Positions 33,987 to 50,954 of a DNA stretch of 51,051 nt are shown here, one piece after another. The notes beneath the pieces were generated by a model. That model was not told the DNA's origin. It made no database searches and worked only from the letters and a program-made list of their open reading frames with translations. Position 1 is the stretch's first letter; each line of letters opens with the position of its first letter. A program made the position numbers and the translations under genes. Origin of the DNA: Bacteroidales bacterium. Its GTDB lineage: Bacteria; Bacteroidota; Bacteroidia; Bacteroidales; P3. The stretch covers positions 1 to 51,051 of the forward strand of contig JAFSQF010000039.1 of the NCBI GenBank assembly GCA_017446745.1, given 5' to 3'.

Positions 33987-35327
33987 TCACCAAGTGACGG
34001 TATGCACATCGCTTTGTGCAGCCCAAGAATTGCCGCCATCGAACGATACAGCGACGAAGATTTTCACCTCATTACGTTGAAGGTTCTTAGCCTTGAAAAT
34101 CCTCATATTGTCCACCATGAAGCGCACGTCGCTGAAATTGGAGTTGTCGTGAGACGGGGTGACAGTGGTCGAGGCTGTAACCCACGTGCCATTGGCATCG
34201 AGCAATTGTGTGGTGCCGTCGGCGTTGTAATAGAGGGCGCAGACCTGCACCTGGCTGTCTTTTTTGCCACGGATGTCGACATCGACATGGAAAACCGTTT
34301 TTCTGCGGCCATCGCCGCCAATGACATTATGCTCGAGGCGTACATTATTGATTTCTACTTGAGGTTGGGCGACGACAGCCTGTGCTGGCCGGCCTTCCTG
34401 CGAAACATGGACGCGGACCGAATTTCCACCGTCGCGCGGCTTGATGGTGAGGACGGCACTACGAGGCGAAGTGCTTTCATTCTCAGTGACGAAGATGGAA
34501 GCCTGCGTGGTTTCAATCCATGAGGGGACGTCAAGCCACTGCAAGCCGCCACACACCTTGATATCGAACGACTCCATGGATTCCTGATAGTCAAGATACA
34601 GCCGTCGGTCGGTGATATCATTGTCAACATAGAGCGTTATGGGTTCTGTGAGGACACCACCGCTGAACGTGCCACCAGATATAGGGGAGTCTGGACTGTC
34701 TTCCTGATAGATGTTGAGGATAATGTCAAAGGGCTGTTCCTCATAATTTTGGAGATCCATGGCGGCGAAAGGTACAAAGAAGACATCCGTAAAGTTCTCG
34801 TAGCCAGTTTCGACGCCGAGAATGCGCCCCTTCTGTCCTGGCATTCCGTGGACATCGAACTCAGTGCCACGGTAACGGTCGGACATCGTGGTGCTTTCCT
34901 TTGGACGTACTATACATTCAGCGTAAATCGACTGGCCTTTAAGGTTTTCCGCATAAAAATCGGCAGTAACTTCGATACCCTGCCGGCTATGGAAACAGCC
35001 AATGCGCATAGAGGCGTTGAAGCGTTGTATACGAGGCTTTTTAGCCGTCGGCGTGTCTGCTGGCTTCTCTTCGGGCTTGGGGGCAGGCTTTGCGGGTTGC
35101 CTCTGTGACATCTTAGCTTTGCAGTCGGCAATTTTTTTCTGAACCAATTTCTTGGAGTTGGCGCTGGCGTCGGGGCAATCCAAAGCAACGCTGAAATACT
35201 GCAGAGCCTTGCTATACTCTTTTTTGTTATAGTGCTTTTCGCCTTGGACGTAGTTTTTCTTGAAACACTGAGCGGAAAGCATTCCGGCAAAAAGAATTAA
35301 AACAAAGAAAATGGCTGTTCTTTTCAT
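33987..35327 (-). CDS. Secreted TPR/BACON-domain protein of the FHA-kinase island
   Basis: 446 residues from ATG 35327, which gives a clean signal peptide (MKRTAIFFVLILFAGMLSAQ). Residues about 21-75 are a TPR-like helical pair (GEKHYNKKEYSKALQYFSVA). A Pro/Lys-rich linker leads to a beta-rich domain (ADFYAENLKGQSIYAECIVR). Next is a BACON domain at about 275-345: GGLQWLDVPSWIETTQASIF, SPRSAVLTIKPRDGGN, VHVSQEG. The C-terminal domain repeats the earlier beta pattern (RIFKAKNLQRNEVKIFVAVS). BACON domains bind glycans or mucin in some proteins. It is the last gene of the island, 23 bp after the kinase, and may be the exported or periplasmic part. Confidence 0.85.
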   Translation of the reverse strand: MKRTAIFFVLILFAGMLSAQCFKKNYVQGEKHYNKKEYSKALQYFSVALDCPDASANSKKLVQKKIADCKAKMSQRQPAKPAPKPEEKPADTPTAKKPRIQRFNASMRIGCFHSRQGIEVTADFYAENLKGQSIYAECIVRPKESTTMSDRYRGTEFDVHGMPGQKGRILGVETGYENFTDVFFVPFAAMDLQNYEEQPFDIILNIYQEDSPDSPISGGTFSGGVLTEPITLYVDNDITDRRLYLDYQESMESFDIKVCGGLQWLDVPSWIETTQASIFVTENESTSPRSAVLTIKPRDGGNSVRVHVSQEGRPAQAVVAQPQVEINNVRLEHNVIGGDGRRKTVFHVDVDIRGKKDSQVQVCALYYNADGTTQLLDANGTWVTASTTVTPSHDNSNFSDVRFMVDNMRIFKAKNLQRNEVKIFVAVSFDGGNSWAAQSDVHTVTW

Positions 35328-35350
35328 ATTCGTCAAATAAAAATTCAGGT

Positions 35351-36799
35351 TTATAAATTGCAGCCAAAGAGGCTTGCTTCGTCGCGTATGGACGCATCGT
35401 CGAACAGTTTGACCGAGAGGGAATAGAATTCGCATGCCGTGACGGTATCGCCCAGTTCGGACACCTGTGTGAAAGCCATCTCCGCCCAACTTTTAGCGGC
35501 CTCCTTCAGTTTGGGGCCCAACGCCTTGCGGAGCTCGGAACTGCGGTTAAAGACCTCGGGCATTTCGGCTGCGTATTTTGTCTCATATCCTATGATGGCG
35601 CTATCGATAAAAGCCCTTGTCTGTAACAATTTTTCCGGTTTAGAGCCATCTGCCAACTTTATCATGACCTGGCATTTTTCCACCTTCTCGTTATACTCGG
35701 CAATGGCGATATCCATTTCATTATTGTTAGAAAGAAACAATTTGACGGCCACCAGCGATGCCAGCACGATCACAACGACAGGGATGATAATCCAAATGGC
35801 CTTGGTTTTCTTATTCGCCCCGGCAGGTTGAGGTGTAGTGCTCTTTTCCGCCTTAGGTGGCTGTGCATTTTGTGGCTTTGCGTTGACCTCAGCAGAGGGC
35901 GTGTTCGAGGCAGAGGGTTTTACGTTGCGAAGGTCGTCCATAAATTCGGCAATGCTTTGATGACGGTCTTGCGATTTGAGTTGCATGGCCTTCATTATGG
36001 TACGGTTAGCCTCGGGAGGGAGGCTAGGATTGAGGTCTTTCGGTTCGGGCATCTGTTCGGTGATGCGTGCTGCAGCCTCGTAGGGTACCTTTCCGGTAAG
36101 GACGAAATAGAGTGTGGCACCGATAGCGTAGATGTCGGTATAGGCGCCTTTGCGGCTGTTGCGCGTATACTGTTCGGTCGGGGCATAGCCATGAGTGACC
36201 ATAGATGTTTGTGCCTGTGTCTTGTCCTCCTCAAATTCGCGTGCCGAGCCGAAATCAATCAGAACGGCCTTGAAATCGGCGGTTATCATGATATTGTCCG
36301 GCTTGATGTCGCGGTGGAGGATATGGCGGTCGTGGATGTAACCCACAGCATTGGCAACCTGGGCGATATAGTTCACCGCTTCTGGGTAAGAGAGAGGTCC
36401 ATTTTGATCGACAATAGACTGAAGACTACGTCCTTCGATGAAAGGCATGACCATGTAAGAGGTGTTGTTCTCGTCGAAGATATCTATAACCTCAACAATA
36501 CCCTGATGATGAAGAGCGGCAAGTGTTTGGGCCTCTTTGACGAAAGCCTTGCGGAAGCGTTCGAAGCGGTCCTCGTCGATGCCCTGAAGGTGTATCGTTT
36601 TGGCATAGGTGTCGCGTATGCAGCCTCCCGCAAGGAAATATTCCTTGATGCAGACTGCGCGATTTAAGCCCGACTGGACGGCACGGTAGGTGATGCCGAA
36701 GCCTCCTTCTCCTATTTTCTTCTCGATAATATACTTGCCGTCGCAAAGGCCAGTACCCGGCTGCAATTCTTTGTAGATAGCATTATTAGTGTCAGACAT
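35351..36799 (-). CDS. Ser/Thr protein kinase with C-terminal TM segment (kinase 2)
   Basis: 482 residues from 36799. The kinase domain (about 23-305) is intact: glycine loop IGEGGFGITY (29-38), K52, catalytic HRDIKPDN (162-169), DFG (182-184), and an activation segment with SMVTHGYAPTEQYT where APE becomes APT-E. A low-complexity Pro/Ala/Lys linker is followed by one TM helix (AIWIIIPVVVIVLASLVAVK, about 338-357) and an extracytoplasmic helical domain. The layout is like PknB-type receptors with an outward sensor. It should phosphorylate FHA-binding Thr sites in the island. Confidence 0.93.
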   Translation of the reverse strand: MSDTNNAIYKELQPGTGLCDGKYIIEKKIGEGGFGITYRAVQSGLNRAVCIKEYFLAGGCIRDTYAKTIHLQGIDEDRFERFRKAFVKEAQTLAALHHQGIVEVIDIFDENNTSYMVMPFIEGRSLQSIVDQNGPLSYPEAVNYIAQVANAVGYIHDRHILHRDIKPDNIMITADFKAVLIDFGSAREFEEDKTQAQTSMVTHGYAPTEQYTRNSRKGAYTDIYAIGATLYFVLTGKVPYEAAARITEQMPEPKDLNPSLPPEANRTIMKAMQLKSQDRHQSIAEFMDDLRNVKPSASNTPSAEVNAKPQNAQPPKAEKSTTPQPAGANKKTKAIWIIIPVVVIVLASLVAVKLFLSNNNEMDIAIAEYNEKVEKCQVMIKLADGSKPEKLLQTRAFIDSAIIGYETKYAAEMPEVFNRSSELRKALGPKLKEAAKSWAEMAFTQVSELGDTVTACEFYSLSVKLFDDASIRDEASLFGCNL

Positions 36800-36870
36800 A
36801 TTTATGAGTAGGTATGTTGTATTGTTTAAATGTTTTTTCAAAAAAAATACACAATCGATGCATTCGTTGA

Positions 36871-37683
36871 TCACGAGAAGCGAGCGCCGCAGCCATAAGG
36901 GCATTTACCGTCGGCGAGGAGTTTTTTCCAGTGGAGGTCGAGACTATAGTCCTTACCGCATTTAGGACAACGGTACTGTTTTTGATATTTGAGTTGCAGG
37001 TCAAGAATAGCCTCTGTAGTCTTTTCCTTTTTCTTGTTGCCACGCCCCATAGTGAGGGTACCTATAAGGCCTGTCAGCACCGAGCCGGCCGACATAGCCA
37101 CGATACGCATCGTCATGTCGGTAGAAACAAGCATAACAACAACACCTAAAGTTATAGGTATCAATGACAAGAGAGTACGGAGCAACTGTTGACCAATATT
37201 TGATCTATTGGTGATTTTTTCCAATTCTTCATGATAGTCGATATAAGCCCTTTTCAACCCGGCGAACTCATTAGAGAAGTCCGTGCGTTCGCCGGCGGCG
37301 GGCTGTCGATGCGTGGCAACATATTGCGGAGAACCCGTTGGTGCAACAGGAGGCACAGCGGAATGTGGGGCCCGTGCGGCAGGAGCTTGGCGATAGGGTG
37401 CCAACAAACTCCTCATATCGAGGCTATAGCAATGATTGTCCGTGCCATTGCCTCCAAGCCACACCGTATCATTTTCCGAGACAGGGGCTTGCGAGATGCG
37501 TCGACCATTAACGTAAGTTCCGTTGGTAGAGCCATTGTCGACAATAGTGGCGCGGACATCGCCGTCTGCGAGCCCCTCGACATAGATGGTGGCATGGTTG
37601 CGGCTTACCTTGGCAAATGACGGAGGAACAGAGAAAGAGTCAGAACCTTGAAGACCACGGCCTATTTTAATTTCGGTATTCAT
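36871..37683 (-). CDS. FHA / two-TM / zinc-ribbon protein
   Basis: 270 residues. An N-terminal FHA domain (1-90: KIGRGLQGSDSFSV, KVSRNHATIYV, NGSTNGTYVNGRR) has the Arg, Ser-Arg-xx-His and Asn residues that bind phosphothreonine. A Pro/Ala linker, a helix (EFAGLKRAYIDYHEELEKIT) and two TM helices follow (LLSLIPITLGVVVMLVSTDM and IVAMSAGSVLTGLIGTLTMG). The tail is a zinc ribbon, YRCPKCGKDY...GKCPYGCG. It can tether a phosphoprotein to the membrane. It overlaps nothing and lies 71 bp from the kinase and 24 bp from the long WXG-like gene. Confidence 0.88.
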   Translation of the reverse strand: MNTEIKIGRGLQGSDSFSVPPSFAKVSRNHATIYVEGLADGDVRATIVDNGSTNGTYVNGRRISQAPVSENDTVWLGGNGTDNHCYSLDMRSLLAPYRQAPAARAPHSAVPPVAPTGSPQYVATHRQPAAGERTDFSNEFAGLKRAYIDYHEELEKITNRSNIGQQLLRTLLSLIPITLGVVVMLVSTDMTMRIVAMSAGSVLTGLIGTLTMGRGNKKKEKTTEAILDLQLKYQKQYRCPKCGKDYSLDLHWKKLLADGKCPYGCGARFS

Positions 37684-37707
37684 AAAGATGAGATACTTAA
37701 TCTATTA

Positions 37708-38505
37708 CTAATCATTATCTGGTACACATTTGAATAGGAGCTCGCCCGTTATTTCGCTGGAATCCGAACCGCTGTTATAGGAACCATTAACCTCACCGCC
37801 AGCAGACGCCTTTGCTATTTTTTTCCAAGGCCACTCCACTCCTGCGTTCAGTTTGCCGCCTACCGAGAAGTTTCCTCCCTGTTCAACAGTTCTAAATGTC
37901 AAAGGAAAATCAGCGTCATCTGCACCAGCAAGTTTAGCTCGGAAGTTGTTGCTTCCATTGTCCCTTTTGCATATTTCGTCAGCCTGGTCAAAAACCTTTT
38001 TCACCTGAGCTGAGGGTTCTGAATCACTTTTTGGTGCCATACCCGAGGGGCCTCCGGCAAAGGGGGTTCCTTTCCTCGTTGCATTAGAGGCACTGTTTTT
38101 TTTGATTAATGCGTCAAGTTGAGCTGCAACGCTTGATGGGGTCGAGACTGCCGCCGCAGAGGCGGCTGCCGCTGAAGCTGCCGCAGGAGCCGAGCCTATG
38201 CCAGAACCAATGCCAGAGCCCGAGACATCTGTCCGCTCCGTCTTGATTACCTGGTCAATGGTCTGCTGCAACACAGAAGTACACCAATTTCTGTAGTTGG
38301 CTGCTATTTCTTGACATTTGGCTATTTGTGGGCCATAGCCCTGCTTAAATTCTTCATACTTCGCGTCTTGCCAAAACTCGTTAACGCGATTCATCTGCTG
38401 AACCATAGTGTTGTATAGTTCCTCAAGCGAAGATGACAATTGTCGGATTTCAGTTTGTAGATTGGTGAGGACATCAGATCCTACATATACGCCGGAGACT
38501 GCCAT
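37708..38505 (-). CDS. Long WXG100-like protein
   Basis: 265 residues from 38505. Residues 1-90 form a helical hairpin like a WXG100 subunit: AVSGVYVGSDVLTNLQTEIR, then the turn NEFWQDAKYEEF with W45-x-D47, then ANYRNWCTSVLQQTI. The following Ala/Ser/Gly-rich linker (about 95-150) joins a C-terminal beta-like domain (NFSVGGKLNAGVEWPW, GSYNSGSDSSEITGELLFKC) that could be the effector or cargo part. There is no signal peptide, as expected for a substrate of a T7-like ATPase. Its first residues MAVSG-Y are shared with the protein at 38846. Confidence 0.7.
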   Translation of the reverse strand: MAVSGVYVGSDVLTNLQTEIRQLSSSLEELYNTMVQQMNRVNEFWQDAKYEEFKQGYGPQIAKCQEIAANYRNWCTSVLQQTIDQVIKTERTDVSGSGIGSGIGSAPAAASAAAASAAAVSTPSSVAAQLDALIKKNSASNATRKGTPFAGGPSGMAPKSDSEPSAQVKKVFDQADEICKRDNGSNNFRAKLAGADDADFPLTFRTVEQGGNFSVGGKLNAGVEWPWKKIAKASAGGEVNGSYNSGSDSSEITGELLFKCVPDND

Positions 38506-38543
38506 AATAAAAAAAATATAGAATAAAATGATTTGATTAATTG

Positions 38544-38789
38544 TCAGAGAAGAGAATTCATTTCCTGAAGATGGTTGTCCATTTGTGAGAGGAGTTGCTC
38601 GAGGCCAAGACCTGAGATACCCTCGCCTGTGATGTACTGGTCGAAGAAATGCAAGAACGGCACCATGGCACCGTCGTTGAAACCGCTGGCCACGGAATCC
38701 TTCCAACCTTGACGGACAGAAAGCCATTGTTGTTCGACAAGAGACTGGACTTCACGGGTTTTGTTTACAAAATCAGGATTGTTAGGCAT
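38544..38789 (-). CDS. Small WXG100-like protein
   Basis: 81 residues, all predicted helix: NNPDFVNKTREVQSLVEQQW, then LSVRQGWKDSVASGF with W29-x-D31 at the bend, then FDQYITGEGISGLGLEQLLS. Size, helical hairpin and central W-x-D match WXG100 proteins, although Gly is Asp. The start at 38789 (MPNNPDF) follows from the signature; earlier in-frame ATGs would add unrelated sequence that overlaps the previous gene. I infer a secreted or structural component. Confidence 0.65.
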   Translation of the reverse strand: MPNNPDFVNKTREVQSLVEQQWLSVRQGWKDSVASGFNDGAMVPFLHFFDQYITGEGISGLGLEQLLSQMDNHLQEMNSLL

Positions 38790-38845
38790 GATTGATACAT
38801 TGGTTGTAATGGGTAGCCCCATCAGGGCCGATAAAATGACTTCTT

Positions 38846-39556
38846 TCAAACAGCATTGCACGTGCATAACAGATAAGGTCGCCCGCACCTTGGGCAGCGA
38901 GATGAGGCCGGTGTCTGTGTGGAGCGGGCATGAGGACTTTGAAGGTTAGGGAGTGCTGCCGGCTGAAAAGTGTGCCGGACTGGGGCTGACAGTGATTCCG
39001 AGGACGAATCTGTGCCCGATAGAGTTGATGATGCCTGTGTGCTGATGGTTGTGACCTCGAGGTTGGCGTTTAGCATCTCCCATATTTTTGCCTGGTTTTC
39101 AGAGAGGAAGTGCGAGATGGCAGGCTGATGGTTGTGAACGACATCGCTCACCAGACGATGACCGCCGCAAGCGTAGTCGTTGATTTCCTGTAGGCTTTGT
39201 GACAGTATTTGCTGACCGCGCCCATAGCGGTAACGCCATTTGTCGGCCTCTTGCTGCGCATTGTTCAGTTCAGTCTCCTCGCAGAGGCAATCGGGCACAA
39301 GGCCGAGTTCGGGGACGAAGACCTGTACGGCATGGCAGGCTTCCAGCGCCACACGTGCGTTTTCCAAGCGCATCTCGGCAGCCTGCAGATTCTGATTGAT
39401 AATGTCGAGTTGTCTTTCCAAGTTGTCACGAACATCGTTCAGATAGTCCGATACCATGTGGTCAATATTGCTGAGTTCGGTGGCCGAGCTGCGGACAACA
39501 TCGTCGAGTTGAGCAAGGAGATTGACATCGCTGATATAGGTGCCAGAAACAGCCAT
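38846..39556 (-). CDS. Helical protein with C-terminal zinc ribbon (WXG-cluster member)
   Basis: 236 residues. It begins MAVSGTYISDVNLLAQLDDV, sharing MAVSG-Y with the protein at 37708. Long helices follow (about 20-160, for example DYLNDVRDNLERQLDIINQN), so a helical bundle is likely. A Ser/Thr/Pro-rich linker ends in a zinc ribbon SRCPRCGRPYLLCTC at the very C-terminus. There is no W-x-D. Two Cys in VPDCLCEE may form a second site. It probably belongs to the same complex as the neighbouring WXG-like proteins, as a longer adaptor. Confidence 0.65.
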   Translation of the reverse strand: MAVSGTYISDVNLLAQLDDVVRSSATELSNIDHMVSDYLNDVRDNLERQLDIINQNLQAAEMRLENARVALEACHAVQVFVPELGLVPDCLCEETELNNAQQEADKWRYRYGRGQQILSQSLQEINDYACGGHRLVSDVVHNHQPAISHFLSENQAKIWEMLNANLEVTTISTQASSTLSGTDSSSESLSAPVRHTFQPAALPNLQSPHARSTQTPASSRCPRCGRPYLLCTCNAV

Positions 39557-39572
39557 AAGCAGATTTGTGCAG

Positions 39573-39866
39573 TTAGTTGAGACGAATCATAGATTGGCAG
39601 AGGTACTGGTTCATATTTTCCTCAAGGCGGTAGAGGATGTCGTCCCTATAGGTTTCGAGGACTTTGCAGAGTGGTAGGATAAGTTCTTTATCCTTGCCGA
39701 AATTCTCCTGGAATTGCTGGAACTGGGCGTCTTTCCATCCCTGACTTACTGTGCTGATGGCATCTTCCGTACGACGCATTTGGTTTCTGAGATTTTCGAC
39801 AGCATCGTTTATTTCGCTGCGGTATGAGCGGATAAGCGAAGGGTCGTTGATTAATCCTGTTGCCAT
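39573..39866 (-). CDS. WXG100-like protein
   Basis: 97 residues, the canonical WXG100 length. Helix one (PSLIRSYRSEINDAVENLRN), the bend STVSQGWKDAQFQQF with W44-x-D46 exactly mid-chain, and helix two (ILPLCKVLETYRDDILYRLE) fit the fold. The usual WxG is W-x-D, as in the two sibling proteins. It is encoded directly after the FtsK-like ATPase gene (81 bp), which is how EsxA-type partners lie next to EssC in T7SS loci. Function in export is inference. Confidence 0.72.
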   Translation of the reverse strand: MATGLINDPSLIRSYRSEINDAVENLRNQMRRTEDAISTVSQGWKDAQFQQFQENFGKDKELILPLCKVLETYRDDILYRLEENMNQYLCQSMIRLN

Positions 39867-39947
39867 AATAAGATTATTTAATTGATTAAAAACAAATTTT
39901 ATTATTTTAACATTCCACCCATTTGGGGGTGTAATACGTAGCCTCTA

Positions 39948-42900
39948 TTAGGTTATGCTGTAAGGTTTGAGTTTAGACAAAGAGTTTGTGACCTCGTTAT
40001 AGTAGAGCACCCGGAAATTGGAGGAGGGACGGTTGAGAATGAGGAGTTTGTTGGCCGAAGCGTTGCCTACGATCTTTTCGGAGTCGCGCTCCGACATCTG
40101 TAGTGCCACACGATGGCAGAAGAGATTTTGAGCGTTGTAGCCAAGGCGAGTGAGATTGGCAAGATTGTCGACCTGCAGGAAAGTAAACACTCCCACCATA
40201 GGGCCATTTTTTAGGATATATTCGAGCAGTCGTGCACATTCCGACTGAAGGTCGCCGCGCGAGCCTGAGCCGTCGAACATTCGTGCTCGTTGGAAGTCGA
40301 AGAATGTGAGATAGAAATGATAGTAGGGCTCGGAAGGATTGTTCTTGCGCGCGTCAACCACGTTGTCCTTGATATAGAGGAGGTAATCCTTAACCTGGTC
40401 GGGCGACTGCGGAGAGTTGAGGTTGCAATAGTCGGAAGCCGATGAAAAGAGTTTGCCTCGCAGTAGAGATTGTGACGGGTCGTCGTCGGTCATGAAATTG
40501 AAAAGGAATACGTAGCACATCTTCTCTGTGTGTGCTGCGATTGCTGAGATCATGGAATGGAAAGTGATTCCCTTGGCAATTTGAGGAAGTCCGCCGATGA
40601 CAAGAAGATTGTTGTTGCTGTCCTTTGTCAAGGGGGCGAAGACATGAGTGGGGGCTATGGCGATGCTTTCGCCAAGGTAGATGCCCACCTCGCGAGGGAG
40701 GTCGGAGGGGGTGCTATGTCCATCAGCCACAATGCGGCGGGTGAACCTTGGCAGTTCGTCGCTGCGGAACACGCGCAGAGGCTCGTCAGAAAGTGCTTCC
40801 GGGTGCATGGCTGCAAACTCCGTCAGTTGGTTGAGGATTGCTTCAAGCTCGCCGGAGGCGTTGATGAAGTACGAGCGTGCCAAACTGTTGGCCATCTCGG
40901 CACCGGACTCGTTGTTGTAGATGCACATGCCGGTCTGCAACCGTGGTGCAGGAGTGTTGTGAGGCCAGCGGATGAGGTTGTTGAAATCGTTCGGGTCGCT
41001 CTTGAAGACCACTCGGTTGGCTATCAAGTCGTATGGCACGATATTCTTGGCAGGCAGCTTCTGCGTAGCCAAAATGAGGTTAATGCCGAACTTGCGGTAT
41101 TCCTGAATGATGGCGTGGATTTTGGCGTTGGCCTCCTTGCTGATGTTGTCGTTCTCTATTTCAAAGATTTTCTGGAACTCATCGACAACCACGAGGAGGC
41201 GAGGGACGATAATATCGGGGTTGGAACGTTTTAGCTCCACAATGTTGGTCACCCCATTCTGGCGGCACAGGGCCATGCGCCGGTTGCCCTCCTCGAAAAC
41301 CTCGCGGAGTATGCTGAGCCCGAACTCGCGTTCCGCCTCGGGTGCTATGACTCGCGCGTGTGGCAATTTATGTTTCGCATAAACATTGAATTCCACACCG
41401 GAGAAATCCAAGAGATAGAGTTGCAGCTCGGCAGGCGAATAGCGAGTGATGGCGCTGGCGATGATGGTGTGAAGGAATACGCTCTTGCCCGAGCCGGGGA
41501 TGCCGATGACGATGGCTGTGTTCTGTCCGCTCTCTTGGGTGATTTGCAGTGCCGCCGTCTTCATTTCCTGCGTAAGACCGAAGGCAAGGTCGATGCGGTT
41601 CGCGCTCAAACCCGTCCACCATTCATTTGTCGGAAGCATATACTCGCCGAACCTCAGAATTGTCTCCGTCTTCACCTCCAAGCTCTTGTTGACTTTAGCC
41701 ACCACGGCCGATATGATGCCCGGCGAGAATTTCTCATAATGGTATTTGGGGGCGATGTTATCGCCACCGGGTGATGAGGTGAAATCGTATGTCTCACATT
41801 GAGCCGAAGTGAATGCATCCTCAAGTTGTTGCAAGGTGTTGTTGAACTCCTGGGAGAGGCTTGCCGCGTCGGTGTCGGCCAGCACCACAATGGAGACGCC
41901 AGCCTTGGGCCCGGTGCGCAACAGTTTGGCAATACGTGCCGGCAAATCGCCTCCGAAACCGGCAGGGACATCCTTGAGGACAACAACCTCGAAAGGCACT
42001 TTCTCTGTCTTGCCAAGATTGTACTCTGCTATGTTGAGGATATCGCCCTGCAGCAGGTTTTGGATTATATTCTCGGTGTGGGAAGCGAGTGCATTGACGA
42101 GACTGACAAAGTCATCGTAGCGCGACACAATTCGGAATAGTTTCTTGTCCAGCCCTTTCATCTGCGAACTTGTGCCTTCCATCTCGGCGGGGTCTACCAT
42201 GGTGACACGGACATTACCTCCCGGGGCGGCAGCGAGCATACGTGCCAAGAGCGTATTCACCGCTTCGAAGCATGACTGCCTGGTTTTCTTTGAATAGCGG
42301 AAAAGCAAGTTGCCTCCATAAATGCTCTGGCAATACTGCCTTTGCCGCAACTCTACGGGTTCGCCAAGAATCCTGTAGTGTATCGTCTTCATGCCGAGCA
42401 GGAACGTCTTCTGGATGTCGACCGAGCTGCGCGGCAAAGTGTCCCAGACATCCGACTCGGCGGTGGCCAGTTCCATACGTCTCCCAAAGAAAGGTGGGTT
42501 TTTGGTGTAATAATCGTCGATGATAGCGTTGACCCATGGAAGTACCGTCTTGCGCATTTCGGTGAGGCGTTGATGCATGAGGTCCTTCCTTTGGTCCACC
42601 TCGGCCAAAGCGGCGGCCAGTTCCGCCTCGCCGCGGCTGCCGGCGAGGCGGAACTGGTATGTCACATCCAGCTTCTTCATATCTGCCTCATAGCTCTCCT
42701 GGAACGTCGAGCATTCTTTCTCAAACCTTTTCAACAGTCCGTCGATTCGAGAACCGACGAAGTCGTAGCGTTCGATAAGGAGGTCCAGCACATCTTCGGA
42801 AAAATGACGAGGAGCGGAGTGCCGCCGGACGGGGAGTTCCTCTGATCTGAAAGTATCTATAATGGATTTCAGCTTGGTTGTCTCGGAAGAGAAAATGGCA

Positions 42901-43262
42901 TCGACATCGGTGGTGAAGTCGTAGAGCACCGACGCGGGGATTACCGTCGGTGCGGCTTGTTGAGGAGGAGGTGTCGGGGTGGCAGGTTTCGGATGGCTTG
43001 CAGCCGGTTTGCGGCTGGCTAAAATTTCATTCCAATTGCCAGGTAGAGGGACATTGGCGAGCATAATACGGTCACCCGGGCGTATGGGCAAAGGCGATTT
43101 CACCTTGCGTCCATTGACGAAAGTGCCGTTGACACTCTGGAGGTCTACGATCTGGACAATGCCGTCGTCGCCGGAAACAATTTTGGCATGATGACGCCCC
43201 ACCTTAGGGCTGTCTATGACAATATCGTTGTCTGGATGTCTTCCTATGGTTAACTCTTTCAT
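39948..43262 (-). CDS. FHA-FtsK/SpoIIIE ATPase (EssC-like), 1104 residues
   Basis: The N-terminus is an FHA domain (1-75: TIGRHPDNDIVI, VGRHHAKIVS, VNGTFVNGR). After a Pro-rich linker comes a long helical region (about 110-290), a first degenerate ATPase-like region (about 340-560), an intact FtsK/SpoIIIE domain with Walker A GIPGSGKS (587-594) and Walker B LLVVVDEF (D694, E695), and a second, degenerate one (IGGLPQIAKG, near 888). EssC of Firmicutes T7SS also has N-terminal FHA and several such domains, but it has two TM helices; no TM is visible here. It probably powers transport or remodelling of the WXG-like proteins. Confidence 0.88.
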   Translation of the reverse strand: MKELTIGRHPDNDIVIDSPKVGRHHAKIVSGDDGIVQIVDLQSVNGTFVNGRKVKSPLPIRPGDRIMLANVPLPGNWNEILASRKPAASHPKPATPTPPPQQAAPTVIPASVLYDFTTDVDAIFSSETTKLKSIIDTFRSEELPVRRHSAPRHFSEDVLDLLIERYDFVGSRIDGLLKRFEKECSTFQESYEADMKKLDVTYQFRLAGSRGEAELAAALAEVDQRKDLMHQRLTEMRKTVLPWVNAIIDDYYTKNPPFFGRRMELATAESDVWDTLPRSSVDIQKTFLLGMKTIHYRILGEPVELRQRQYCQSIYGGNLLFRYSKKTRQSCFEAVNTLLARMLAAAPGGNVRVTMVDPAEMEGTSSQMKGLDKKLFRIVSRYDDFVSLVNALASHTENIIQNLLQGDILNIAEYNLGKTEKVPFEVVVLKDVPAGFGGDLPARIAKLLRTGPKAGVSIVVLADTDAASLSQEFNNTLQQLEDAFTSAQCETYDFTSSPGGDNIAPKYHYEKFSPGIISAVVAKVNKSLEVKTETILRFGEYMLPTNEWWTGLSANRIDLAFGLTQEMKTAALQITQESGQNTAIVIGIPGSGKSVFLHTIIASAITRYSPAELQLYLLDFSGVEFNVYAKHKLPHARVIAPEAEREFGLSILREVFEEGNRRMALCRQNGVTNIVELKRSNPDIIVPRLLVVVDEFQKIFEIENDNISKEANAKIHAIIQEYRKFGINLILATQKLPAKNIVPYDLIANRVVFKSDPNDFNNLIRWPHNTPAPRLQTGMCIYNNESGAEMANSLARSYFINASGELEAILNQLTEFAAMHPEALSDEPLRVFRSDELPRFTRRIVADGHSTPSDLPREVGIYLGESIAIAPTHVFAPLTKDSNNNLLVIGGLPQIAKGITFHSMISAIAAHTEKMCYVFLFNFMTDDDPSQSLLRGKLFSSASDYCNLNSPQSPDQVKDYLLYIKDNVVDARKNNPSEPYYHFYLTFFDFQRARMFDGSGSRGDLQSECARLLEYILKNGPMVGVFTFLQVDNLANLTRLGYNAQNLFCHRVALQMSERDSEKIVGNASANKLLILNRPSSNFRVLYYNEVTNSLSKLKPYSIT

Positions 43263-43320
43263 GAGGCAAGGGTCGGTATTGAAATGTTTAACTTTTTAAT
43301 TGTTGCATGAAATCTATAAT

Positions 43321-44190
43321 TCATTTCCGTTCACTCATATAGGCACGAATCTGGTTGGCGAAGATTTCGCACGACTGGTAGCGCCTTTCAGGGAGTTTGG
43401 CAAGGGCACATTCTACGATGAACTGAAGCTTGGAAGAGATATGTGGGTAAAACTGATTCATCAGAGGGGTGGGTTGGAAGCGGATTTTGTCCATAATCTC
43501 GTGCCGGTATTGTCGGGGGTTGGGGTTGTCGGACGAGAAAGGTAGACGCCCGGTGAGCATCTCGAAGAGCATTACGCCAAGTGAGAAAATGTCGGTGTAT
43601 TTTCCAAGGCGCCCGCCAGACGACTGTTCGGGGGGCATATAGGCCGGGGTGCCAAAGCCCGTGCTGCTCTCCGAACCCATGCGCGAAGCGATGCCGAGGT
43701 CTATGAGTTTTATTTTCCCTTCGGGAGTCATCATGATATTGTTCGATTTGATGTCCAAATGCAGCACTCCGTCGTTGATGCCAAGGTGTGGGATGCGCAG
43801 GCGATGCAGGAAAGCCACGGTGTCCAGAATCTCTAAGAAAATTGGGAGCGCCTTCTGTTCAGGGATGAGGCCTATTTCGCGATAGATATAGTGTTCCAGG
43901 CTGCGCCCATCGATGAACTCCATGATAAGGAACATTTGGTTCTGTGCCGGGAGGTCGATGAAGTCCACCAGCTTTGGGATGTTGGGATGCTGTGCGTAGA
44001 GCATTAACTGCGTTTCCATGTTGCGGAAGTTTTCGCGCACTGCCGAGTTGCTCATATGGCGCAGCTTCAATTCCTTGATAGCCACAGGGAAGCCACTGCG
44101 GAGATCGATACCCCAATACACCTTAGCAGTACCTCCCTCGGCAATAAGGCGGTCGACATGATAATTGGCGATGTGAGGCAAGTCATTCAT
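43321..44190 (-). CDS. Ser/Thr protein kinase (kinase 1, soluble)
   Basis: 289 residues, a kinase domain only. Glycine loop IAEGGTAKVYWG, K39 in VAIKEL, catalytic HLDIKSNN (144-151; Leu replaces the Arg of HRD), DLG (164-166) in place of DFG, then TPAYMPPEQS as the P+1/APE region. The HLD and DLG changes leave the catalytic Asp and the metal-binding Asp in place, so activity is likely. Its absence of a TM segment contrasts with kinase 2. Its start overlaps the previous gene by 8 bp (ATGAATGA), so the two proteins are made together. Confidence 0.93.
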   Translation of the reverse strand: MNDLPHIANYHVDRLIAEGGTAKVYWGIDLRSGFPVAIKELKLRHMSNSAVRENFRNMETQLMLYAQHPNIPKLVDFIDLPAQNQMFLIMEFIDGRSLEHYIYREIGLIPEQKALPIFLEILDTVAFLHRLRIPHLGINDGVLHLDIKSNNIMMTPEGKIKLIDLGIASRMGSESSTGFGTPAYMPPEQSSGGRLGKYTDIFSLGVMLFEMLTGRLPFSSDNPNPRQYRHEIMDKIRFQPTPLMNQFYPHISSKLQFIVECALAKLPERRYQSCEIFANQIRAYMSERK

Positions 44191-45208
44191 CGGCTTTGGA
44201 TTTTTTAATGGTATTGATAATTGCTTGTCGTTTGTCGTTGCTGACGGCCTTGCTGAAAGTGTCGACAATTTTTCGGTAGCACTCGTTTTCTTTTCTGGAA
44301 GCTTCGATGCCCAAGGCCACGCAAACTTCCTTGAGGCGATTGTCGTCGCGGGCTTTATTTAGAGCTTCGTAGAATTGGGTGGTGAGCTTCGCCTGCAAAG
44401 CAGCATCGGAGGCTTTCTGAGCTTCGTCGTTGGCTCTCTGTTCAGCGACGTTGGCTCTCTCTGCTTCTTTTCGACTTTTATTTTCAGCATTCTGTACATC
44501 CTTTTTTGCCCTATCATTCTCAGCCTGTAATTCATTCACTTTGTCTTGCTCACCTTTCAATTGGTTCTCAAGTTTTTTCTTGTCCGAATTCAATGCGTTG
44601 ACTTTACTATTAGCCTGTGCAGCCTGCATCTTCAGCAAGTCGGCCTCTTGCCTGTCCCTCTCCGAATTGCTTTCAGCAGCCTTCCGCAGAGCTGCCTCGT
44701 ACTCAGCATTGGCGTTGGCAGCCTCGACAATGGCATCGTTGATTTCTTTTTCAAGGTTGTGATATTGTTCGTTCTTCTGAACCATGCGACGCGCATCCTC
44801 TTCACTTTGCTTGCTCCTGACGACAAAGAAGAGCACCACTGCGACAACAACGACCAAAGCCGCAACAACAGCGATAACTATCACACGATTAGATCGAGAA
44901 GACTTTCGCTTGGGTGCAGGAGAGGAAGATTCTTGCCTCGTGTGATTGCCATCCGGCAGATTGTCGGTGGTGAAATAGTCGAGCCACGGAATCGGGATGT
45001 CGCCAACAACGAGATTGTCGCCTGGTTTGATGGCGGCATGACCGGAAATACGGGAGCCATTAACGAAAGTTCCGTTTGCAGAATTAAGGTCGACAACGAC
45101 GTATTTGCCATCGTCGTCGCGAACCAGTTGGAGGTGCACACGGCTAACCTTGGGATTATTGATGACAATATCGTTGTCGGGGTTTCTTCCAAGTGTTTTG
45201 ACAATCAT
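44183..45208 (-). CDS. FHA / TM / coiled-coil protein
   Basis: 341 residues. FHA domain 1-75 (TLGRNPDNDIVINNPKVSRV, NSANGTFVNGSR), then an IPIPWLDYF strand, a basic linker (PKRKSSRSNR), one TM helix (VIVIAVVAALVVVVAVVLFF, about 109-128) and a very long coiled coil (about 135-270) rich in Glu, Lys, Asn and Ala. The C-terminal domain ends IINTIKKSKADE. With FHA inside and coiled coil outside, it could bridge the envelope and recruit phosphorylated partners. It is coupled by overlap to kinase 1. Confidence 0.9.
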   Translation of the reverse strand: MIVKTLGRNPDNDIVINNPKVSRVHLQLVRDDDGKYVVVDLNSANGTFVNGSRISGHAAIKPGDNLVVGDIPIPWLDYFTTDNLPDGNHTRQESSSPAPKRKSSRSNRVIVIAVVAALVVVVAVVLFFVVRSKQSEEDARRMVQKNEQYHNLEKEINDAIVEAANANAEYEAALRKAAESNSERDRQEADLLKMQAAQANSKVNALNSDKKKLENQLKGEQDKVNELQAENDRAKKDVQNAENKSRKEAERANVAEQRANDEAQKASDAALQAKLTTQFYEALNKARDDNRLKEVCVALGIEASRKENECYRKIVDTFSKAVSNDKRQAIINTIKKSKADE

Positions 45209-45250
45209 AGCGAAAAGTATTAGAAAAAATAATTGGGAAAGCGTAGCTCA

Positions 45251-46582
45251 TCAGATTTCCGTTTCCGGGATGTCTACATCTCTTTTGTTTTTCTTTAAGT
45301 CGTTGAGGTGTCGACGCAGCACAGCGAGAGAGTCGTTGACGGGAACTACATATTTTGCTTTGTATTCCTCACATTTCTTCTGTGCGTCGATTTTTTCAGC
45401 AGATGTGTTTTTTAGATTTTCCAACCTTTTATACTGTTTATACATTTTGTTGTACTCGTCGTTGTACTTAACGGAATCCTTTTGCAAGTGGTCGATTTCC
45501 TGTTGAATACGCTCGGCTTTCCTTGCGTTTGAGGCTGTACTCCCAAAGAAGTATGCGATGAGAACGGCAGCAACAACGATAACAGCCAAAGGGAGAAAGA
45601 TTTTCTTCCTTGATTTGCCGGAATTCGATTGGGCTGATGACGAAGATTGGTGAGTATCGCCGTCTTGAGGGTTACCGTAATGGTGGGATTGTTGCTGGAG
45701 TGGAGGGTGTGATTGCTGAGAAGAAGTCGAAGAGAAGGGCTGATGTACGGGCTGAGGAGTGGGCTGGGGGTTGAAGCTGTGGAACTGACTCTCCATCCAG
45801 TTGCTGCTGTCTATTTCGATAAGCTGCAGCGTGCAGTTGTCCTGACCTCCTGGCTTTACTGTCTCGCCTATCATGGCCAGTTCGATAAGGTGCTCGCCCT
45901 TCTCGTGCAGAGTGAGATTCTCGCCCAGTACCGCCTCGATTGTACGGTCGGGAATCATGCCGCTGAGGCCATCGCTACAGATGAGGAATATATCGCCATT
46001 TTTAGGGTGAATAGGGCGCGATTCAAAGTTGAACGTGGGGCTTAGTTCCGGCCGGATGCCCAAAGCTTTGAGGATGCGGTTCTTATTGGGGTGATGCTCT
46101 GCCTGGTCGTCGGTTATCTCGCCCGCATCAACCAGCGTCTGGACGTAGGAGTGATCCTTGGTGATGCGATGCAGAACCCTCTCCTTAGCAAGGTAAAGAT
46201 AGATGCGACTATCACCCACGTGGGCAATCCAGGCACCGTCGTCGTTGAGAAGAAGGATGCACGCCGTGGTACCCATACCCTTGTATTCGGGATGGTTGGT
46301 GGCATGCCCAAGAATTTGAGTGTTGGCAAACTGCAGTGCGCCATCCATGGCCTCCACCGGCGTGGGGTACTTCTGCGATGCTATATAATTGACAATGCTG
46401 TCGACAGCTATGCCCGAGGCCATGGCTCCACCCACATGGCCACCCATACCGTCACACACCACAAAGAGGTCGCCATTGGGTGTACCCAACCTGTAACCGT
46501 TGCTATCCTCCTGAGCCTTGCGGACATTACCAATTACGCCTTTGGCAAATATTTTGCTTTCGTTTCCTGTTATTAGACCCAT
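45251..46582 (-). CDS. PP2C-type Ser/Thr phosphatase with TM and C-terminal coil
   Basis: 443 residues. PP2C motifs with metal-binding Asp residues: KAQEDSNGY, FVVCDGMGGHVGGAMASG, KGMGTTACIL, AHVGDSRIYL, ICSDGLSGM and GGQDNCT. The catalytic domain ends about 260. A Gln/Ser/Pro/His-rich linker, one TM helix (IFLPLAVIVVAAVLIAYFFG) and a charged coiled coil follow. It would reverse the phosphorylation made by the two kinases. The TM-plus-coil plan matches the FHA protein at 44183, so the two may interact outside the membrane. It lies 42 bp from that gene and 25 bp from the FHA/TM gene. Confidence 0.94.
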   Translation of the reverse strand: MGLITGNESKIFAKGVIGNVRKAQEDSNGYRLGTPNGDLFVVCDGMGGHVGGAMASGIAVDSIVNYIASQKYPTPVEAMDGALQFANTQILGHATNHPEYKGMGTTACILLLNDDGAWIAHVGDSRIYLYLAKERVLHRITKDHSYVQTLVDAGEITDDQAEHHPNKNRILKALGIRPELSPTFNFESRPIHPKNGDIFLICSDGLSGMIPDRTIEAVLGENLTLHEKGEHLIELAMIGETVKPGGQDNCTLQLIEIDSSNWMESQFHSFNPQPTPQPVHQPFSSTSSQQSHPPLQQQSHHYGNPQDGDTHQSSSSAQSNSGKSRKKIFLPLAVIVVAAVLIAYFFGSTASNARKAERIQQEIDHLQKDSVKYNDEYNKMYKQYKRLENLKNTSAEKIDAQKKCEEYKAKYVVPVNDSLAVLRRHLNDLKKNKRDVDIPETEI

Positions 46583-46607
46583 AACGTTACTTTTATAATA
46601 GATTAAT

Positions 46608-47252
46608 CTATACTGTCATTATTATGATTTGTACCAATCCTACCCACGAGAAAATGCCATATATCACTTGAACAACGTTGAGCGAAAGTGCCGTTTTGGC
46701 GAACTTCATTGCTTTCGTTCCATCATTCTCGACGACTTTTGCATCAGCTCTTTTGGAAAAAAAGATAGCCAGGCCACCCAAAACAACCGCTATCAACAGC
46801 CTCACGAAGAACAGCCATCCACCCATGCACATAATCACAATAATAGGTAGCGACGATAGGGCCAACACGACGACCGATGTCGTTGTGCTGGAAAAAAACA
46901 CCGTTGTTCGCTCTGCAGACGCCTCTGAGGCTGCGGTAGCATCGTCAGTCGGGGTCACTGCCAAAGGCTCCGAATCCTCGTTGATTTCTGTATGTGGTAT
47001 TTGAGCCTGAACCTCGAAATAAGACATCCAGGGTATCGTCGTGTTGCCGATGCGAACAATATCGGTGGGTTTTAGGAGAATCTCGCCAGAGACTCTATTT
47101 CCGTTGACAAAAGTGCCATTGGAACTGCCGAAGTCGGAAAGAGAATAATGGCCATCGTCGTGACAAATTATTTGCAAATGATGCCGTGAAGCAAACTGGT
47201 CGGCAATCGTGACATCGTTGTCCTGACTTCTTCCGATAGTGACTACTTTCAT
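46608..47252 (-). CDS. FHA / membrane protein
   Basis: 214 residues from 47252. FHA domain (TIGRSQDNDVTI, FASRHHLQIICH, SSNGTFVNGNR) followed by TTIPWMSYF. A Thr/Ser-rich linker contains ERTTVF, which looks like a kinase and FHA target. Then come TM helices (SVVVLALSSLPIIVIMCMGG, LFFVRLLIAVVLGGLAIFFS and a third at the C-terminus, VVQVIYGIFSWVGLVQIIIM). The start was chosen because residues 1-5 are MKVVT, in line with the other FHA proteins of the island. Confidence 0.88.
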   Translation of the reverse strand: MKVVTIGRSQDNDVTIADQFASRHHLQIICHDDGHYSLSDFGSSNGTFVNGNRVSGEILLKPTDIVRIGNTTIPWMSYFEVQAQIPHTEINEDSEPLAVTPTDDATAASEASAERTTVFFSSTTTSVVVLALSSLPIIVIMCMGGWLFFVRLLIAVVLGGLAIFFSKRADAKVVENDGTKAMKFAKTALSLNVVQVIYGIFSWVGLVQIIIMTV

Positions 47253-47290
47253 TATGATATATCTATTAATAGGTTGAACACACAATGCTT

Positions 47291-48853
47291 CTATAGATAA
47301 AATGAGATGACGGCTTCGCCCAGGCAGAACACGTCGCCGCCCCGAAGAGGATGGCGCATGGCAAGCTGTCCGTTGACAATAATTCCCTGTGTATATGACT
47401 GACTGAGGTTAACCAGCATAAAATCAGCACCATCAAAGACTATTTCGGCATGAAGCCCAGAGACCGTCATATTGTCGAAAGTGTCGCTGCGCATACTAAA
47501 TGCCACGTCATTATCGTCATTACGCCCTAATGTGACCCGAGGTTTGGTGATGGAATAGGAGAAAACACTATTTCCAACCTTGCACTGTAGGCGAGGGTAA
47601 AGATTTTTACTCTGCATCAGGCTTGTAAGGCGCAGCGTTTCCTCCTCGCGCCGTTCTTGCTCTTGCTGTTGCTTGGCAGCAAATTCTTTTGCCTCTTGCT
47701 CTCGGCGCATTCCCTCTATGATGTCATGGCTTCGCATCTCGCTGTCACGTTGTTTTTGCAGCATTTCGGCATTGAGGTCTTCCTCAAACTGATGACGTTT
47801 CAGTCTACTGTTTTTCACAAGGTAGAGTACCAGCAGAACGATGCCTGCCAGCAAAACGACGAGCAGTGCCACGAGGACAATATGGCTGGAAAGCCACTGA
47901 CCAAGAGTAGGATTGGGAGCCTTGTAGGGAGGTATGCGGTAATCCACCCTGTCTGCGAGAAAGCGGAGGCGATGCATCTTACCGTCGCGCTGCGAGCTGG
48001 TTGTGAAGGTGAACTGGTAACTACGACCATAAAGACGGCGGTCAAAAAGACCATAGAAACCAGACAAAGCGTTAGATGCGGAATCGGCTTGAACAGTGGA
48101 GGCGACAAGACCATACGTGGACTTTGCCAATATGTTGACTTCAGGAGTGTTGCCAGAAATGGGATACTTTATGACATAGACCGGGATACCGGCCTCAAGA
48201 GCGTTACGACGAACTGTCTCCATCTCGGTGGAGGCTCCCGAAGCCTTCATGTTGAGCCCCGCCGTAACTACTATTATAACACCGGCCCTGTCGAGAGGCT
48301 GCTTCTTGAGGATGTCAACACCCTCGTTGATGGCCATGTAGAGGTCGCTTTGCATTGGAAAGTCGGAGAAAGTCTCATTGCCACCACGGTAGTTGTCGAG
48401 GGCATCGACAATTTTGGCGGGGTTGTTGGAGAAGTGGTCCATCAACAGGGTAAGCACGCCGGCTTTGGAGTCGCGATTACGATTGAAGACGGCAATGTTG
48501 AAACAGTCAGACTTTTGGATTCCTTTGCTTCTGAAGAAACGAGTGAGCATTTGGCGGGTGAACTCCGTTTGCCTGCTGTGACTTACCATATCCTCCCAGA
48601 GAATCAAGATGCTTTTGTTGAAATGGACACTTTGGTCGACAGGCAGAGCCTGAAGTGAGAAAGCAAGAGGCTCCCCATTTTCTGACAGGGCGAAGCGGTC
48701 GGCCTCCATCAGGTCGGGGTCGGCAGAGTTCCAGACAAAAGAGACCGTTGGGAAGTCGGTGACGTCATACATTCCCTGATAGCCACGCTGAGGCTGCGTC
48801 CAACCCACGAGGCAGTGGAAAAGTAAGAACCCGAAAAGAAAAAACCTATTCAT
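47291..48853 (-). CDS. Secreted-type VWA-like domain / TM / coil / FHA protein
   Basis: 520 residues from ATG 48853. The signal peptide (NRFFLFGFLLFHCLVGWTQ) exports a VWA-like domain (about 25-265: FNKSILILWEDMVSHSRQTE, RAGVIIVVTAGLNMKASGAS, AGIPVYVIKYPI). The MIDAS motif is weak, so metal binding is uncertain. A TM helix (about 305-330, VLVALLVVLLAGIVLLVLYL) and a cytoplasmic coiled coil (EMLQKQRDSEMRSHDIIEGM) precede a C-terminal FHA domain (VTLGRNDDNDVAF, GLHAEIVFDGADFML). It thus links the periplasm to phosphothreonine binding inside. Overlaps the first island gene by 4 bp (ATGA). Confidence 0.82.
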   Translation of the reverse strand: MNRFFLFGFLLFHCLVGWTQPQRGYQGMYDVTDFPTVSFVWNSADPDLMEADRFALSENGEPLAFSLQALPVDQSVHFNKSILILWEDMVSHSRQTEFTRQMLTRFFRSKGIQKSDCFNIAVFNRNRDSKAGVLTLLMDHFSNNPAKIVDALDNYRGGNETFSDFPMQSDLYMAINEGVDILKKQPLDRAGVIIVVTAGLNMKASGASTEMETVRRNALEAGIPVYVIKYPISGNTPEVNILAKSTYGLVASTVQADSASNALSGFYGLFDRRLYGRSYQFTFTTSSQRDGKMHRLRFLADRVDYRIPPYKAPNPTLGQWLSSHIVLVALLVVLLAGIVLLVLYLVKNSRLKRHQFEEDLNAEMLQKQRDSEMRSHDIIEGMRREQEAKEFAAKQQQEQERREEETLRLTSLMQSKNLYPRLQCKVGNSVFSYSITKPRVTLGRNDDNDVAFSMRSDTFDNMTVSGLHAEIVFDGADFMLVNLSQSYTQGIIVNGQLAMRHPLRGGDVFCLGEAVISFYL

Positions 48854-49587
48854 AATGAGGAGCGGAATTTGAAGACTGTATGTCCGATGCGAATAAGATC
48901 CCCATCGCAAAGGTAGCAGGGCTCTAATTCGATGTCTCGGTCGTTGACAAATGTACCGTGAGATGACTGACTGTCTGTGATAGAATATTTTCCGGCACGG
49001 AAAAGGAGGACTGCATGTTTGGAGGATACCCAATTGTCGTTTACGGTGACGCTGCAATCCTGGTCTCGCCCTATGATATTACGTCCTTCGTATAGTTTGA
49101 AGTCGACGCCCATCGGGTCTAATGAATAGCTCACAAGCCAGCCTACGAATTTGCGCATCTCGCGAAAAGCACTGGCATTGGCCTGCATGGGCGTGCCGTA
49201 AGGTGTGTCGTCGTCATCGCCAAAAACTGTACGTCCCGACATTGAAGCGCCACCATTGCCATAAGCATTGAACGGTGGTGTATATGACTGGCTATTATAC
49301 CCTGAAGGATTATAATTTGCCTGTTGATTGTCGATAACAGTTGTCTTTCCGCCGCCGTTGGCCTGTGCAGCCGGACGAGGGGTAGCATATGGCGAATTTG
49401 ATGTCGGTGCGTTTTCGGGGATGTTAAAATTCTCGGTTGGGCGAAGTGGTCCCCCATCGGGACTGTTGAAAATCTCTGTTTTTTGGGTTGTAATAGAGCC
49501 TTGATCATTGCCAACCGACTTACAAAAAGGGCAATGGTCACCTTGGTAATAATGTCCATTTGGACATTGCTTGTATTCGTTAGACAT
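48850..49587 (-). CDS. Zinc-ribbon / FHA protein, first gene of the island
   Basis: 245 residues. An N-terminal zinc ribbon (QCPNGHYYQGDHCPFCKS) leads to a long disordered linker with three Thr sites in hydrophobic/acidic settings: KTEIFNSPDG, KTTVIDNQQ and RTVFGDDDDTPYG. The FHA domain is C-terminal (about 160-245: GRDQDCSVTVNDNWVSSKHA, SQSSHGTFVNDRDI). A Thr-containing tail plus an FHA domain is the design of GarA/OdhI proteins, where the phosphorylated tail folds onto the FHA domain as a switch. That is an inference here. Promoter at 49620. Confidence 0.87.
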   Translation of the reverse strand: MSNEYKQCPNGHYYQGDHCPFCKSVGNDQGSITTQKTEIFNSPDGGPLRPTENFNIPENAPTSNSPYATPRPAAQANGGGKTTVIDNQQANYNPSGYNSQSYTPPFNAYGNGGASMSGRTVFGDDDDTPYGTPMQANASAFREMRKFVGWLVSYSLDPMGVDFKLYEGRNIIGRDQDCSVTVNDNWVSSKHAVLLFRAGKYSITDSQSSHGTFVNDRDIELEPCYLCDGDLIRIGHTVFKFRSSL

Positions 49588-49619: not shown

Positions 49620-49627
49620 CAAATATA
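49620..49627 (-). promoter_or_regulatory. -7 promoter box of the FHA-kinase island
   Basis: The minus strand reads TATATTTG (TAnnTTTG), 33 bp before the start codon. A TTTG about 24 bp farther upstream (49652-49655) is a loose -33 candidate. Confidence 0.6.
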
Positions 49628-50921: not shown

Positions 50922-50954
50922 ATACCCCTCGATATCACTATACTATGACATAGA

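Follow-up and report, generated by a model that had tools for sequence, protein, structure and literature searches.

The locus considered here raises the question of whether a diderm bacterium possesses a machine akin to type VII secretion and, if so, what it serves. Type VII secretion systems (T7SS) have been described from Bacillota and Actinomycetota, and Bacteroidota are known for type VI (T6SS) and type IX (T9SS) secretion systems. The locus is a run of 14 minus-strand genes (g1 to g14, positions 33987-49587) of a Bacteroidales bacterium, and it lies in the window, i.e., the whole analysed stretch of 51,051 nucleotides from contig JAFSQF010000039.1 (assembly GCA_017446745.1). It is composed of two modules, a five-gene core (g7-g11) and a cassette of kinase, PP2C, FHA, and VWA-like genes. 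With moderate confidence, we favour the explanation that the locus encodes a module for type VII-like translocation of proteins in a diderm, in which transport itself is something we infer from sequence. Since partner proteins in relatives carry toxin domains, it is probably a weapon-export or defence system, unstudied so far.

The core begins with g7 (39948..43262), a protein of 1104 residues with an FHA domain, a coiled coil, and an FtsK/HerA-type ATPase that carries GIPGSGKS at residue 587; Pfam reports FtsK_SpoIIIE with 5.9e-25. Against NCBIfam models g7 scores 62.6, 61.6, and 59.3 bits for EccCa, EccCb, and EssC, respectively, vs 17.2 bits for the FtsK translocase, all four being below the curated cut-offs. 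A profile of 13 ATPases compared with PDB gives EccC5 (1.7e-15), 4nh0 (5.3e-14), and YukB (1.8e-13), with FtsK at 4e-6. The entry 4nh0 is listed as FtsK/SpoIIIE, and we take it to be T. curvata EccC. Judged by these far better scores, the nearest relatives of g7 appear to be EccC/EssC/YukB, with FtsK DNA translocases further away. On this point the preliminary description, which had named clustering with DNA translocases as a refutation of its T7SS-like candidate, is supported by both the hidden Markov model and the PDB profile comparisons.

Directly behind the ATPase lie four small proteins, which the preliminary description had called helical, three of them having W-x-D at the centre, and had proposed to compare with WXG100 profiles. 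The first, g8 (39573..39866, 97 residues, W44-x-D46), matches Pfam WXG100 (PF06013) with an E-value of 6e-4 and 20.5 bits, under the curated cut-off of 27.3, and the same family is matched at E <= 1 by 12 of the 13 members of the g8 family (best 1.1e-5). When the g8 profile is compared with PDB, the ten best matches all belong to the WXG100 family, headed by EsxA of S. aureus (8.4e-4); two S. agalactiae entries among the ten are presumed by us to belong to this family. The motif is W-x-D, not W-x-G, and its W and D together with a subsequent F are invariant in all 13 g8 sequences. Thus, g8 looks weakly WXG100/Esx-like. As for g11 (37708..38505), it combines a WXG100-like N-domain of about 95 residues, a Gly/Ser/Ala linker, and a C-terminal domain without assigned function; the first 95 residues are homologous to g8 (hhalign 95.1%, 3.1e-8), and W-x-D is found in 14/14 aligned family members. 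The 81-residue g10 (38544..38789; the start was chosen at 38789, and a longer reading frame exists) also has W-x-D, shows weak similarity to g8 (hhalign 38.8%), and is a possible WXG100 protein. The coiled-coil protein g9 (38846..39556, 236 residues), with its C-terminal CPRCGRPYLLCTC cysteine module, was considered as a WXG protein and rejected (hhalign 1.1%, no W-x-D motif). The earlier count of three W-x-D proteins out of four is therefore correct, and a WXG-like assignment stands weakly for g8 and for the homologous N-domain of g11, fails for g9, and is possible for g10.

Conservation of the core was assessed on 13 distinct loci, namely the window and 12 loci from a scan of named genomes with a six-sequence ATPase alignment, so that all of them were found through the ATPase. 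The titles of these 12 loci mention Bacteroidales, Prevotellaceae, Alistipes, Alloprevotella, or Paludibacteraceae, the last four of which we take to belong to the order Bacteroidales; where record titles give a source, it is goat, yak, roe deer, or red deer. According to leave-one-out profiles, g8 and g9 are present in 13/13 loci, g10 in 12/12 testable ones, and g11 in 11/12 (the contig of L049 ends before g10 and g11 could be tested, and g11 is missing in L034). The usual order is ATPase, g8, g9, g10, g11. A second order, with a short g11 between g8 and g9, is seen in L035, L055, L056, and L057, and in L033 and L054 additional small genes are interspersed in the core. The expected synteny in other genomes thus holds for g7-g11, which recur in 13 Bacteroidales loci; the cassette is separable from the core.

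Full-length ATPase orthologues are found in 6 of the 190 family genomes, the own genome included; three further genomes with a shorter, divergent ATPase (G053, G056, and G067) were counted as core-free. The g8 profile matches the same 6/190 genomes at E <= 1e-4 and no others; because it contains those six sequences, the informative part is the absence of a match in any other genome. Two of 393 genomes in the order-wide survey (E <= 1e-60) and two of 395 in the phylum-wide survey (E <= 1e-30) match, again with the own genome included, and the core is therefore rare and patchy. The Alistipes and Alloprevotella ATPases are almost identical (tree end branches of 0.055 and 0.065), which points to inter-family transfer or misbinned contigs. 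Among plasmid records, 3 match the ATPase, none covering 80% of it.

What the core might deliver is suggested by its relatives. Comparison of 11 g11-type proteins gives N-domain identities of 34-97% in alignments of 86-95 residues, and the C-terminal parts give mostly short, low-scoring mutual matches; that of the window g11 is shared with L054 (52%, 98 residues) and, weakly, with L032 (28%, 95 residues). L031 has a second gene of the g11 type, whose product terminates in a papain-fold toxin of the Gln_amidase family (8.3e-18), and in L054 the same toxin family is borne by a g9-type gene with the g9 N-domain (2.9e-11). Over 267 residues these toxin regions share 46% identity, and the small genes directly behind them, of which that in L031 encodes 79 residues, are 52% identical (3e-28), so that a toxin-immunity pair appears to stand behind two different carriers. 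The g11 profile, too, finds the L054 toxin protein (1e-6), which would fit a joint acquisition of linker and toxin. Since carriers of both types in relatives bear toxins and are followed by an immunity-like gene, the likely job of the system is antibacterial effector delivery. Gln_amidase is the sole firmly recognised toxin family, at two loci, and the polymorphic-toxin layout is seen in relatives only.

Of the 12 long carriers, 10 have an FN[MLI] stretch after the linker, compared with 0/20 other core proteins examined; shuffled sequences give a mean of 0.44 and at most 3 in 2000 shuffles, in a test made post hoc on related sequences. The window g11 lacks the stretch, and the L032 and L054 carriers end at it. 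After these carriers ending at FNLG, DnaJ-type CXXCXGXG proteins with a predicted transmembrane segment are encoded (L032:15117-16145 and L054:16741-17367), and an Hsp70-like gene is present in L053. Two effectors of relatives, which have no phospholipase match in Pfam, contain a C-x2-H-D-x-C motif that we assume to be phospholipase A2-like. The Lipase_3 match in L036 is under the cut-off. Both of these assignments are weaker than that of Gln_amidase.

As for the way in which such a module could operate, cytosolic g7 would dock through its FHA domain on phosphothreonines of the membrane-anchored FHA, PP2C, kinase, and VWA-like proteins. These marks would be placed by the kinases g6 and g13 and removed by the PP2C phosphatase, and phosphorylation may thereby assemble or open the machine. 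The ATPase g7 would then move g8 and, along with it, g9/g10 and g11, the last being a carrier with a WXG head, and in relatives the carriers would deliver antibacterial effectors. What the sequences show is homology, synteny, the division into modules, toxin domains fused to carriers, and immunity-like genes in common; assembly by phosphorylation, the direction of transport, and transport as such are all parts of this proposed scheme.

The FHA domain is not the only control head found on this type of motor. In the L055 and L056 ATPases it is replaced by two GYF_2 matches (2.5e-10 and 1e-9), and the L057 ATPase aligns with them. ThiF genes accompany L055 and L056 (9.8e-24 and 3e-24), Prok-JAB is present in L056 (1.5e-8), and L057 has neighbours of the same lengths and order, seen as gene calls. 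No ubiquitin-like protein was recognised among the scanned neighbours of these GYF loci. In the ATPase tree there are supported clades for the group of the window, with 5 rows, and for the GYF group, with 3 rows, L035 (FHA) falls outside both FHA groups, and distant rows sit on long branches. A whole-genome search found no FHA domain in the L056 and L057 genomes (metagenome-assembled genomes of 1.8 and 1.3 Mb, completeness not given) and four in the L055 genome. Gating by phosphorylation, as suggested in the preliminary description, is thus plausible for the FHA flavour only. The GYF/ThiF/JAB operon of L056 is preceded by a NusG paralogue (L056:7629-8210, PF02357, 3.6e-12), as if a long operon had its own antiterminator.

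Several observations weigh against a translocation module. A single G-x4-G-K-[ST] Walker A, located in the middle domain, is present in 13/13 ATPases, which departs from a standard T7SS; the third domain aligns with the second across the Walker A position (hhalign 70.9%, 3.8e-5), and the first shows no FtsK likeness detectable by hhalign against the second. A crude hydropathy scan predicts a transmembrane segment in 0/13 ATPases (the highest 19-residue value, 1.65, is located at the Walker A helix), and EccC/EssC are described as membrane-bound in PMC11217815. The more distant ATPase of G492 has one predicted transmembrane segment. FliJ is also matched at E <= 1 by 8/13 g8 members (best 1.3e-4), and the 11th PDB match of g8 is a designed coiled coil at 0.0081 vs 0.0074 for the 10th. 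No toxin was recognised in the window, the C-terminal part of its g11 having no toxin match in Pfam. YukC and YukD have no match in the own genome (92% complete; both were found in the Bacillus subtilis control); the EccB query matched nowhere and says nothing about EccB in this genome. None of the 14 genes was recognised as coding for an outer-membrane component. Finally, an ATPase relative on a Caballeronia plasmid adjoins a Card1-like nuclease, and one on a Rhodococcus plasmid adjoins an Hsp70/GrpE pair.

Because the ATPase has no anchor and because of the genes that accompany its distant relatives, the main rival is an intracellular conflict or anti-phage system. In it the ATPase and the WXG-headed effectors would work within the cell, the phospho set would sense infection, and toxins would, with no export, kill either the host cell or the invader. 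The Caballeronia plasmid has a related ATPase and WXG100 near VWA, PP2C, and kinase genes besides the nuclease, the GYF flavour includes ThiF and JAB genes, and kinase/PP2C/vWA sets occur in conflict systems described in PMC7159879. In a PADLOC scan that took in 10/14 window proteins, the kinases match PD-T4-6 and mad6, the models matched by the ATPase are mad8 (1.2e-13) and SspH (7.5e-13), and PP2C (E 0.0045) and g11 (E 0.0069) give weak matches. However, kinases and FtsK/HerA ATPases in general can be expected to match models of this kind, and none of the matches singles out one defence system. The motor is, moreover, EccC/EssC-like, its partners are WXG100-like, and the toxin-immunity cassettes behind two carriers resemble interbacterial polymorphic toxins. 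We therefore regard intracellular defence as unlikely, and a type VII-like module as the better explanation.

A different doubt is whether core and cassette belong together at all. The cassette is represented upstream of the core by g1 (48850..49587; FHA with an N-terminal Cys/His stretch that is zinc-ribbon-like by eye), g2 (47291..48853; a signal-peptide-like start by eye, a degenerate VWA-like domain, a transmembrane segment, and FHA), which served as the cassette marker, g3 (46608..47252; FHA followed by C-terminal transmembrane helices), g4 (45251..46582; PP2C phosphatase, transmembrane segment, coiled coil), g5 (44183..45208; FHA, transmembrane segment, coiled coil), and the soluble Ser/Thr kinase g6 (43321..44190). 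Downstream of the core stand g12 (36871..37683; FHA, transmembrane segment, and a C-terminal stretch that is zinc-ribbon-like by eye) and the Ser/Thr kinase g13 (35351..36799; transmembrane segment, coiled coil). According to Pfam, FHA is found in g1, g2, g3, g5, g7, and g12, which agrees with the five FHA proteins and one FHA-FtsK ATPase listed earlier, and a search of the own genome (92% complete) found these six FHA domains only, all inside the locus. The two kinases (g6 and g13; 7e-47 and 3.5e-44) and the single PP2C (g4; 5e-14) are likewise confirmed by Pfam, and the motifs HxDxKxxN, DFG/DLG, DGxGG, and GDS are present. The VWA-like label of g2 fares less evenly: VWA is matched by 2/10 members of its family alignment (best 5.1e-7), but the window protein itself has no VWA match in Pfam and lacks DxSxS.

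Marker g2 matches 13 of the 190 family genomes, i.e., all six core genomes and seven of the 184 core-free ones (G053, G094, G103, G114, G116, G145, and G180); the hypergeometric value for finding 6/6 core genomes among 13/190 is 2.8e-8 if related genomes are treated as independent. In G114, G103, G094, G180, G116, and G145, gene calls place kinase/PP2C/FHA genes in stretches that lack both ATPase and WXG genes. Divergent kinase/FHA/PP2C sets adjoin the core in L053, L054, and L058, and marker g2 is found in 0/7 other named core genomes, these three included; that search returned no match at all, though the same query matched 13/190 family genomes. In the genome G059, cassette and core sit on separate contigs. 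A single 14-gene machine, as the preliminary description proposed, was therefore rejected: the cassette occurs without the core and the core without marker g2, and the run is better described as a five-gene core within a signalling cassette that exists independently.

These figures also bear on the explanation that a mobile WXG/ATPase element was inserted by chance in a signalling cassette and that the two have no joint function. The seven core-free genomes with the marker, its absence from the seven other named core genomes, and the separate contigs of G059 all agree with it. However, the co-occurrence of 6/6 vs 7/184 holds even where the modules are not adjacent, as in G059, the ATPase itself bears an FHA domain, and three loci have a divergent set of the same kind beside the core, which makes unrelated neighbours quite improbable. 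That g7 is a DNA translocase or envelope-assembly motor merely resembling T7SS would fit its FtsK/HerA superfamily, lack of a membrane anchor, and single Walker A, but is very improbable given EccC/EssC scores more than 40 bits above the FtsK translocase model and WXG100-like genes beside the ATPase in 13/13 loci.

The remaining features of the locus concern its layout. The last gene, g14 (33987..35327), has a signal-peptide-like start, resembles BACON at 4.4e-5, which falls slightly short of the cut-off, and resembles TPR weakly. Start codons of all 14 genes were picked among alternative reading-frame starts, and with these the intergenic gaps range from -8 to 81 bp and are below 60 bp in 11/13 cases, which is in line with the one-strand, tightly spaced arrangement reported before. 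The single promoter placed at 49620 is not demonstrated, as the consensus scan covers sigma-70 sites; TATATTTG at 49620-49627 is a candidate Bacteroidota-type -7 element. Upstream of the operon, positions 50150-51051 presumably hold the degraded C-terminal end of groEL and part of a transposase.

Beyond the 13 loci, WXG100-like and g9-like genes are found near the ATPase in G492, G445, L063, and the Caballeronia plasmid, where they precede it, and g10-like genes in the first three. The run on this plasmid (L062, NZ_CP049321.1) reads VWA, WXG100, g9-like, FtsK ATPase, Card1-like nuclease, VWA, PP2C, and kinase. L063, an IMG/VR contig classed as viral, has ATPase, WXG, g11-, g9-, and g10-like genes. 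No core small protein was recognised at the Rhodococcus plasmid locus. A second, divergent WXG/ATPase locus type is present in the same genus (L036:4017-16000, L037, and L038); in L036, a lipase-like effector and several WXG-like genes lie between flanking genes for FHA, VWA-FHA, and PP2C proteins.

If a type VII-like module is the right explanation, an antagonism or defence system would be added to the repertoire of Bacteroidales, of which several here come from ruminant guts, and recruitment of a type VII-like motor by phosphothreonine marks would become testable. More tentatively, and with less than even confidence, the loci may represent a separate diderm type VII-like class: an anchorless plug-in core with a swappable control head (FHA with the kinase/phosphatase/FHA/VWA-like cassette, or two GYF domains with genes for E1-like ThiF and deubiquitinase-like JAB in the position of the kinases). 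A reversible mark on proteins, instead of helices of its own, would recruit the motor to the membrane, and the toxins delivered would be those fused to the carriers.

The preliminary description knew of no established Bacteroidota T7SS of this composition, a claim that requires correction in two respects. Table note 6 of Zhang et al. 2012 (PMC3482391) mentions "mobile versions of T7SS" with a solo WXG and a YueA-like ATPase of three HerA/FtsK domains, the middle one active, and names Bacteroidetes. The present loci are alike in host, in the solo WXG (g8, 13/13), and in a Walker A in the middle domain only (13/13); the note itself, however, is silent on locus, phospho cassette, effectors, and control heads. 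Furthermore, the available text of PMC11217815 reports that, in addition to ATPase and WXG100, the subtypes T7SSc, T7SSd, T7SSe, and T7SSj collectively include Ser/Thr kinase, PPM/PP2C phosphatase, vWA, and FHA proteins, and suggests phospho-regulation for these Gram-positive subtypes, phosphothreonine recruitment of the motor being raised there as an idea, without a test. In contrast to the present diderm host and an ATPase without predicted transmembrane segments, these subtypes are described in that text with membrane-bound ATPases, YukD-like proteins in most, and a distribution in Bacillota and Actinomycetota only. Among the literature matches listed, judged by title and start of abstract, no further paper describes this system; most subscription journals and bioRxiv are outside that coverage.

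Regarding the other known systems, the ATPase is homologous to those of T7SSb (EssC/YukB) and T7SSa (EccC), the WXG100 family is shared, and its N-terminal FHA is found as in EssC. The difference lies in the Walker motifs, which in EssC are canonical in both D1 and D2 according to PMC9436818, and in YukC/YukD, which are unmatched here. The Agrobacterium T6SS phosphothreonine/FHA switch, as cited in PMC11217815, is alike in that a kinase, an FHA protein, and a membrane partner control Gram-negative secretion; it belongs, however, to a T6SS, of which no part was recognised here. Firmicutes LXG and actinobacterial WXG polymorphic toxins share the N-terminal carrier, the swappable toxin, and the small immunity gene, whereas the present carrier is a W-x-D WXG100-like or g9 domain, followed by FN[MLI] in 10/12 long carriers. 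In comparison with all of these, the new elements are the swappable control heads, the toxin-immunity cassettes, and the anchorless motor.

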